Shown here piece after piece: positions 25,143 to 36,302 of a stretch of 64,000 nucleotides of DNA. Under the pieces are notes generated by a model. That model ran no database searches and was not told where the DNA came from. It worked only from the letters and a program-made list of their open reading frames with translations. Numbering within the stretch: position 1 is the stretch's first letter; each line of letters starts with the position of its first letter. Both the position numbers and the translations under genes were made by a program. The DNA comes from Lentisphaeria bacterium (GTDB taxonomy: Bacteria; Verrucomicrobiota; Lentisphaeria; Victivallales; UBA1829): positions 1 to 64,000 of the forward strand of contig JAFVTF010000082.1 of NCBI GenBank assembly GCA_017503375.1. Reading direction: 5' to 3'.

Positions 25143-25170
25143 TTGAATTACTTGAAACCTATGCTATATT
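25143..25170 (+). promoter_or_regulatory. Promoter in front of the structured RNA candidate
   Basis: TTGAAT (25143-25148) and TATATT (25165-25170), 16-base spacer, the same form as the promoters of protein genes in this window. The first transcribed base would be near 25177. Confidence 0.6.
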
Positions 25171-25176
25171 GGTAAG

Positions 25177-25418
25177 CGAGGATTTTATTTTAACAGCAAA
25201 GGAAATTTTACGAAACAGAAAACTTTTGAATTAAACGCATTGCATAAAGGCTTTAACCCCTTAAATTACCACATAAAGCGATAAGCCTCAAAATAGAACT
25301 GATAGATTGATTTTTGTGCCGTGTATTGTGCATACACGGTGCATTCTCGTATTGTATCTATCAGTTCCGCTGTGGTAAGCGGTAGGGGTTGTATAATCGG
25401 AATGCACCTCTTTTTTTT
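25177..25418 (+). ncRNA. Candidate structured non-coding RNA with nested hairpin
   Basis: No protein frame fits. The segment folds as one nested rod: GCATT/AATGC (25237-25241 with 25401-25405), AACCCCT/AGGGGTT (25255-25261 with 25384-25390), TTACCACA/TGTGGTAA (25266-25273 with 25371-25378), GCG/CGC (25278-25280 with 25368-25370), GAACTGATAGAT/ATCTATCAGTTC (25296-25307 with 25356-25367) and CCGTGTAT/ATACACGG (25319-25326 with 25332-25339). All pairs are in order and exact. A run of eight T (25411-25418) follows. With the promoter at 25143 this has every part of a small RNA gene. A long rod with an internal bubble is reminiscent of 6S RNA, but I see no decisive 6S feature. The SNase fragment starts 33 bases later. 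Confidence 0.55.
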
Positions 25419-25450: not shown

Positions 25451-25678
25451 ATGAAATCAATTCTTTTATTCTTTTTATTCTTTACTCTATCGTTATTTTC
25501 CGCTGAAATCTCCGGAAAAGTGATTAAAATTTCAGACGGTGACACCATCACAATCCTTGATTCAAACAACAGAAAACACAAAATCAGACTTGATAAAATA
25601 GATGCTCCTGAACAGAAACAATGTTTCGGGATCAATGCAAAGAATAAGAAAGGCTCTGTTCCCAATAAAGTTTTGTAA
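25451..25678 (+). pseudogene. Secreted staphylococcal-nuclease-like protein, truncated by a MITE
   Basis: The likely start is the ATG at 25451, giving a signal peptide (MKSILLFFLFFTLSLFSAE). The SNase domain then begins: GKVIKISDGDTITILD and IRLDKIDAPEQKQCFG, with the conserved Asp of DGDT and the first catalytic Arg. After KNKK the frame enters a family I element (from 25652) and stops 9 residues later. The second half of the domain, with the catalytic Glu region completed and the second Arg, is absent. No remainder is found on the far side of the element, where another gene ends. The product is almost certainly inactive. Confidence 0.8.
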
Positions 25679-35342: not shown

Positions 35343-36302
35343 TCATTCGAGAATTTCCAGAATTTGTTTTGCTCTGTGAAAATGGGTATGTTCTGCAAGA
35401 CAACGTTTTCTTCCGGCTTTGCCGACTTTTTTCGCAAGTTCCGTATCTTTCAGAATACGGGGGACAAGCTCGGAAAGTTCTTCCTTTGTTTTGAAGGTGA
35501 AAACTTCTTTGCCTTCTTCAAAGGCTTCCGGAAATTCTTCCACCCATTCTGCACAGAGACAGCTCCCGGTAGAGGGAATTGCAAAACATTGAAGGCTGAG
35601 GATTGTCTGAAACTGGTCCAGCGGCTCCTGAAGAATATTGATCATTGTGCGGGAATCCCGGTAAACGCCAACCAGTTCAGTTCCTTCAATATTATTTTTC
35701 TCCCGGCAGAGCGGTGCAAGATCTGTTTTTTTCCAACGGTCTCCGTAAAGGGCAAGATCACAATTCAGTACGGAGCAGTATTCCACCCGGCGGGCTGTTG
35801 CTCTGCCGATGTAGGAACATTCCGCATCGTACCGTTTTTCGCCTCCGTTTTCCGGGGAATAATAATCAGTATTGACTCCATGAGGAACGTAAAACACAGA
35901 TTCTCCTTTTTTTTTCAATTCCCGTTCAATATATCTGGAAACTGTGAGGAAAATCCCGTTCCGGCTGTATTGATAATAGTCTTCCACATTTTTTCTGCGG
36001 GGACCGTCATAGTCATGAAAGACGGGAATTCCGTTCCAGTAACTTTTCATTCTTGCGAGATCGAATTTACAGCTTCCGGCGAAGGAACAGACATCCGGTT
36101 TTACTTTTTTTACGAGTTTTTCCAACACTCTCTGGCGGTATTCCTCTTCCCATTTTTCCGGCAGGGAGAATCCAAAGAACCGTTCCATATTGTGATAATC
36201 AGCCGGAATTACTTCGCAGCCTGCCTGCTGAAATCCGGCGGTGATATGTTCCAGATGAAGTTTCATCCATGAACTGTAATTTCCTATCATTAAAACTTTC
36301 AT
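35343..36302 (-). CDS. CgeB/YkvP-like glycosyltransferase
   Basis: The preferred start at 36302 begins MKVLMIGNYSSWMKLHLEHI; the frame is open to 36353. The 319-residue protein has a GT-B-like first half and a C-terminal domain with SYIGRATARRVEYCSV, GVYRDSRTMINI and PSTGSCLCAEWVEEFPEAFEEGKEVFTF. This is the layout of spore-type CgeB/YkvP glycosyltransferases and other DUF3880-linked enzymes that modify surface polymers. A C-terminal VGKAGRKRCLAEHTHFHRA helix ends the family. A family II element lies directly after the stop. It has no close operon partner. The acceptor is unknown. Confidence 0.75.
   Translation of the reverse strand: MKVLMIGNYSSWMKLHLEHITAGFQQAGCEVIPADYHNMERFFGFSLPEKWEEEYRQRVLEKLVKKVKPDVCSFAGSCKFDLARMKSYWNGIPVFHDYDGPRRKNVEDYYQYSRNGIFLTVSRYIERELKKKGESVFYVPHGVNTDYYSPENGGEKRYDAECSYIGRATARRVEYCSVLNCDLALYGDRWKKTDLAPLCREKNNIEGTELVGVYRDSRTMINILQEPLDQFQTILSLQCFAIPSTGSCLCAEWVEEFPEAFEEGKEVFTFKTKEELSELVPRILKDTELAKKVGKAGRKRCLAEHTHFHRAKQILEILE

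Follow-up and report, generated by a model that had tools for sequence, protein, structure and literature searches.

The question raised by positions 25143 to 25418 of this DNA is whether they encode a free-standing small RNA or something that belongs to the gene that follows. Working from the window alone, by which we mean the whole 64,000-nucleotide stretch analyzed, the sequence-only reading had proposed a promoter-driven RNA of about 240 nt, possibly a new small RNA, in which all helices nest, with some resemblance to the design of 6S RNA and with the caveat that a recombination site might be present instead. Comparison with related genomes indicates that the element is one copy of an undescribed and strongly conserved RNA family of gut Lentisphaeria, and we favor, at a probability of roughly 0.58, the reading that it is a cis-acting structured leader RNA of a new class, namely a transcription attenuator resembling an orphan riboswitch.

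An interlocked RNA fold and its covariation

All features of the window copy lie on the forward strand. The sigma-70-like promoter (25143-25170) consists of TTGAAT at 25143-25148, a 16-nt spacer, and TATATT at 25165-25170, the latter preceded by TGC, and a T8 run at 25411-25418 forms the 3′ end of an intrinsic terminator; both had been placed correctly by the sequence-only reading. The 5′ leader, whose start at 25177 is predicted from the promoter position, extends to 25243 and carries a Shine-Dalgarno-like AAAGGA without a start codon at 25198-25203; it is AT-rich and partly kept in other copies. About 75 nt of leader separate the promoter from the RNA core. No long frame covers the element, as had also been recognized, with ORFs of at least 80 aa either stopping by 25091 or starting close to where the T run ends. 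The predicted folding energy of the 248-nt RNA is -66.8 kcal/mol, compared with -50.9 kcal/mol for dinucleotide shuffles (z -3.5), and only one of 200 shuffles does as well.

The main helices are present where they had been seen, and comprise P2 (AACCCC 25255-25260 with GGGGTT 25385-25390), P3 (TTACCAC 25266-25272 with GTGGTAA 25372-25378), the 11-bp P4 (AACTGATAGAT 25297-25307 with ATCTATCAGTT 25356-25366), and the apical hairpin P5 (GTGCCGTGTAT 25316-25326 with ATACACGGTGC 25332-25342). These four form a nested set, but the claim that no helices cross does not survive, because P1, P7 and P6 all cross it and homologs support all three. P1 (AGGCTT 25248-25253 with AAGCCT 25283-25288) surrounds the 5′ strands of P2 and P3 and crosses both. 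P7 is a hairpin (CCGC 25367-25370 with GCGG 25379-25382) whose loop, TGTGGTAA, is the 3′ strand of P3, so that P3, as a loop contact, crosses P7. In the terminator helix P6, the 3′ side of the apical arm (strand B, GGTGCATTCT 25338-25347) pairs with the strand directly before the U run (strand C, GGAATGCACC 25399-25408); read from the sequence, its 5′ strand overlaps the 3′ strand of P5, and strand C thus competes for strand B with strand A (25316-25320) at the base of P5. The predicted fold is an interlocked pseudoknot that P6 closes, and CACCTCTTTTTTT at the terminator end is invariant or nearly so in an alignment of 28 copies.

Compensatory changes, which had been named as the check to make, are abundant. 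In the 28-copy alignment, P2, P3, P5 and P7 are together 96.4% paired, with two-sided changes in 18 of 26 pairs (105 such cells vs 27 shuffled); with a covariance model the fetched loci then yielded 106 matches, and in the resulting larger alignment two-sided changes extend to all 26 pairs (620 cells vs 157 shuffled). The shuffle controls ignore the tree; a second control, which retains the relatedness of the copies, slides the partners by one to three columns, upon which pairing falls from 96.5% to 30-51%. Two-sided changes occur in eight of eight pairs of P2, seven of seven of P3 (98.9% paired), seven pairs of P5 (94.8% paired) and four of four of P7 (95.3% paired), in an alignment that is biased toward P2, P3 and P5 because these are inside the alignment model; P6 and P7 lie outside it. 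P6 is 93.7% paired with two-sided changes in 8 of its 12 pairs (99 cells vs 41.6 shuffled), and the double changes between subfamilies include UA-to-CG and GC-to-AU.

An alignment-free test on 100 copies, in which the 5′ arm of each copy is paired with its own 3′ arm or with those of other copies, favors the native arms for P1 (15.6 vs 12.4), P2 (21.8 vs 10.9), P3, P4 (25.2 vs 16.9), P6, and P7, the last being the weakest (10.9 vs 9.8). The P4 arms are of wholly different sequence from copy to copy, and the support for P1 and P4 comes from this test rather than from aligned columns.

Two known folds invite comparison. In the HDV topology the strands are ordered P1a-P2a-small loop-P1b-arm-P2b, and the element has a similar order and shares the interleaved P1/P2 double pseudoknot, as would a self-cleaving ribozyme of this type. 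We consider such an activity extremely improbable, however, as the extra kissing hairpin P7 sits at the junction of the HDV catalytic cytosine, P3 is a 7-bp loop-loop contact, the RNA ends in a terminator, and none of the scanned loci reaches the Rfam HDV threshold. With 6S RNA the element has in common a promoter-driven rod of about 200 nt with an unpaired interior, but the proposed 6S-like design fails: a long rod with an open-promoter-like central bubble is not what we find, as P1, P6 and P7 cross and covary, and the element is an interlocked pseudoknot that occurs in multiple copies per genome, precedes diverse cargo genes and has no Rfam 6S match.

A multi-copy family nearly confined to one Lentisphaeria order

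The covariance model finds a single copy in the window, the other match, at 35429, having an E-value of 0.9, and the sequence-only reading had missed that the genome contains more. DNA similarity gives five matches in this genome, including the window copy, of which two others are near full length (78-83% identity) and two are divergent; covariance model R2 gives seven. Copies are found by DNA search in 7 of 60 relatives (8 of 61 genomes with its own), and the exact pattern of the apical hairpin in 23 GTDB contigs, all of them Lentisphaeria, Lentisphaerae or Victivallis MAGs and mostly labelled ruminant gut. Model R1 is positive in 13 of 36 genomes of the same family and in 36 of 388 genomes sampled from the phylum, of which 34 belong to the same order and only two do not. 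Model R2 yields about 199 matches, spread over 66 of 137 genomes from this order, the richest having 13, 11 and 11 copies. The genome assemblies are drafts, the named contigs belong to MAGs, and model E-values are rough because the calibration was short. That the element is a new structured RNA, kept in relatives and with compensatory changes, is strongly borne out.

The Rfam search that had been suggested, made against Rfam 15, returned, at gathering score, only one tRNA outside the element for the window and 36 further loci. A permissive scan produced weak matches to BTnc201 and SNORD65 only, which we judge to be chance; the likeness to BTnc201 (RF04177), a Bacteroides sRNA, is at the terminator strands (E 0.045), and its 23.9 bits are far under the gathering score of 105, with a 42-nt insert required and a model without the core helices of the element. 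Acido-Lenti-1 (RF01687) is a published motif listed for Lentisphaerae (PMC2864571), and its Rfam model matches neither the window nor the other scanned loci. Literature searches found no description of the RNA family, although absence from Rfam and open-access text is not proof of absence everywhere.

The family could also be viewed as a DNA-level site, either a recombination site or the end of a mobile cassette, with its RNA-like look incidental, and tandem RNA-gene duplications (L012, L139, L223, L224, L026), partial tandem repeats in L013, and the many copies at contig ends are in keeping with this. The earlier caveat therefore survives as a rival, but a very improbable one: the helices cross and have wobble-compatible covariation, a promoter lies on one side and a terminator on the other, and the orientation to the gene is constant. 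Phage and plasmid collections searched by DNA similarity, and viral contigs searched by three patterns, gave no match, and at that sensitivity nothing points to carriage by a phage or plasmid.

Locus L013 (1-427; contig 229 of G016) carries partial repeats in tandem, about 138 nt long and each with the 3′ half of the RNA, which look like the outcome of unequal recombination between copies. The copy at 4160-4332 of L034 has a 5′ half like one neighbor and a 3′ half like another, and is either a recombinant of tandem copies or an assembly chimera.

Placement ahead of accessory genes

Among the 107 copies with sufficient flank, the downstream neighbor is on the same strand in 97 (p 5e-19) and the upstream neighbor in 72. 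The cargo start codons are mostly 12-60 nt past the RNA end, at offsets characteristic of each family (31-35 nt for most methyltransferases and 13-17 nt for the MIEK family); in the window the gene starts 33 nt past the T run, which had gone unremarked. Such spacing leaves no room for a separate promoter, and we therefore reject a private promoter for the downstream gene in most copies. Together with the shared strand it makes a 5′ leader likelier than a small RNA.

If the element instead encoded a small RNA of about 240 nt that acts in trans, ends at the U run every time and merely has accessory genes for neighbors, this would explain the presence of its own promoter, a strong terminator and a stable fold. 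It would not explain the same-strand gene in 97 of 107 copies, often only 12-60 nt away and at family-specific offsets, nor the up to 13 diverged copies per genome, none of which a shared trans RNA would require. We regard this explanation as unlikely.

The leader has a conserved layout of its own. Hexamers resembling a -10 box peak 70-110 nt 5′ of the core (99 copies) at five to eight times the control rate, and AGGA, GGAG or GAGG peaks 40-60 nt 5′ of the core, with 64 in one 10-nt bin vs about five elsewhere. The Shine-Dalgarno-like motif is present in 88 of 98 copies, and only four have an ATG, GTG or TTG after it; as this purine motif lacks a start codon, we reject a leader peptide. Its pairing with the 16S tail scores 15.7 vs about 12 for control or shuffled DNA, and several relatives have the standard 16S tail sequence GATCACCTCCTTTCTA. 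Pairing of the motif with the RNA's own 3′ tail was rejected (native 14.5 vs swapped 14.8) in preference to 16S pairing.

The nearest idea for a start-codon-free motif of this kind is, as cited in PMC11805744, the STAB-SD of Agaisse and Lereclus (1996). A structured 5′ leader might similarly set mRNA stability or translation, through 30S binding and the pseudoknot as a 5′ barrier, with termination unregulated, and the positioned motif is as expected from such a role. With an invariant terminator and a covarying P6, however, most transcripts would be cut short, and a terminator is something that a stabilizer can do without, which makes this role distinctly unlikely.

The RNA end of the window copy (25338-25417, CACCUCUUUU) is similar to the anti-Shine-Dalgarno tail of 16S rRNA.

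Candidate attenuation and the downstream genes

In the attenuating leader that we favor, the promoter would start the transcript with its leader of about 75 nt, in which the start-codon-free motif is perhaps a 30S-binding stabilizer; P1, P2, P3 and P7 would then fold with the P4/P5 arm as an interlocked pseudoknotted domain, and the RNA would stop at an intrinsic terminator that precedes the accessory gene's start codon by 12-60 nt. Strand B has two possible partners, strand A at the P5 base and strand C, which adjoins the U run and with which it forms P6, and this opposition of A:B and B:C pairing suggests a transcription-attenuator layout. A signal sensed by the pseudoknotted domain would settle whether P6 forms, and hence whether transcription enters the gene, and the family probably acts as an on/off switch for reading the downstream accessory genes. 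We infer conditional termination, the direction of the switch, and the sensing of a ligand or trans factor, and P6 could be merely a constitutive terminator. The P2/P3 conformation is on average about 15 kcal/mol better than the P6 conformation in nested-only energies, from which switching is not evident, and the nested model cannot treat the pseudoknotted state.

The element resembles attenuating and orphan riboswitches in having a conserved structured 5′ leader with pseudoknots, many different downstream genes, and an intrinsic terminator helix overlapping an upstream helix. The structured, covarying domain lies in the 5′ leader of same-strand genes (97 of 107), and covarying P6, with its 5′ strand overlapping the 3′ strand of P5, has the form of an expression platform. 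The element differs from riboswitches in its lack of an Rfam match, its near confinement to one Lentisphaeria-type order, and its ties to accessory and restriction genes, and it is riboswitch-like only as a putative class, with ligand binding as a candidate property.

The cargo is functionally mixed, and the signal is therefore hidden. It is possible, though we consider it doubtful, that the class responds to a common signal, for instance a second messenger or an indicator of either phage attack or foreign DNA, and that controlled termination coordinates a scattered Lentisphaeria regulon of restriction-modification operons, a secreted nuclease, surface-modifying enzymes and accessory genes. 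If there is such a switch, it would bring entire restriction-modification operons, and many accessory genes besides, under one RNA-sensed signal in gut Lentisphaeria, and we know of no description of restriction systems controlled by an RNA leader. So large an RNA class, with multiple copies per genome, very strong covariation and no counterpart in Rfam, offers a ready starting point for ligand searches.

The window copy precedes a truncated gene for a secreted SNase (25451-25678), with 75 aa left of about 154, which tracks the intact relative L011 as far as GINAKN, after which the reading frame departs from it and terminates. The RNA of the window copy looks intact, but its cargo gene is already broken. 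In relatives, and on contigs C87 and C71 of this genome, other copies are followed by SNase genes with complete domains. About 16 of some 80 SNases lie behind the RNA, mostly the top-scoring ones.

When 119 distinct downstream proteins are grouped by similarity, the largest group contains 26 zinc-ribbon, Sel1 and related proteins, and a group of 15 is mainly EcoRI-type methylases, to which a chimeric ORF links two sulfatase-like proteins. There are 13 secreted SNases plus four lipoproteins with an SNase-like motif, four ankyrin proteins, and two further families of 10 and 8 members, whose tested representatives match nothing in Pfam, PADLOC or PHROGs. Among the proteins that occur singly are GmrSD, a Type IIG enzyme, a DrmD-like helicase, a candidate defense protein, UDP-sugar enzymes and peptidases. 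We claim no enrichment statistic, because the PADLOC proteins were partly picked by Pfam hits.

Ten of the 14 near-complete EcoRI-type methylases of the order lie directly behind the RNA. Eight of nine methylase loci examined matched the search (L008, L098, L099, L102, L106, L121, L220, L236), and in all eight the methylase gene runs 4-11 nt into a DUF262 gene. Two of the DUF262 genes, submitted to PADLOC, were called as a Type II restriction enzyme (REase_II, E < 1e-135); methylase and DUF262 gene together make up a compact restriction-modification operon that follows the RNA.

In L223 (3252-4740), L224 (3899-5080), L139, L026 and L211, units of RNA and gene stand in tandem or in clusters, and their small cargo genes are paralogous; the MDDFxGL... 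and MIEKTAVL... families of these units go unmatched in Pfam, PADLOC and PHROGs. The unknown families that recur as cargo provide testable candidates for defense or stress genes. In L014 (1-1467) a single ORF is methylase-like at its start (MADNSNLQKANKAKQDEFYTQLSD) and then continues as a sulfatase-like membrane protein, apparently a fusion of cargo genes.
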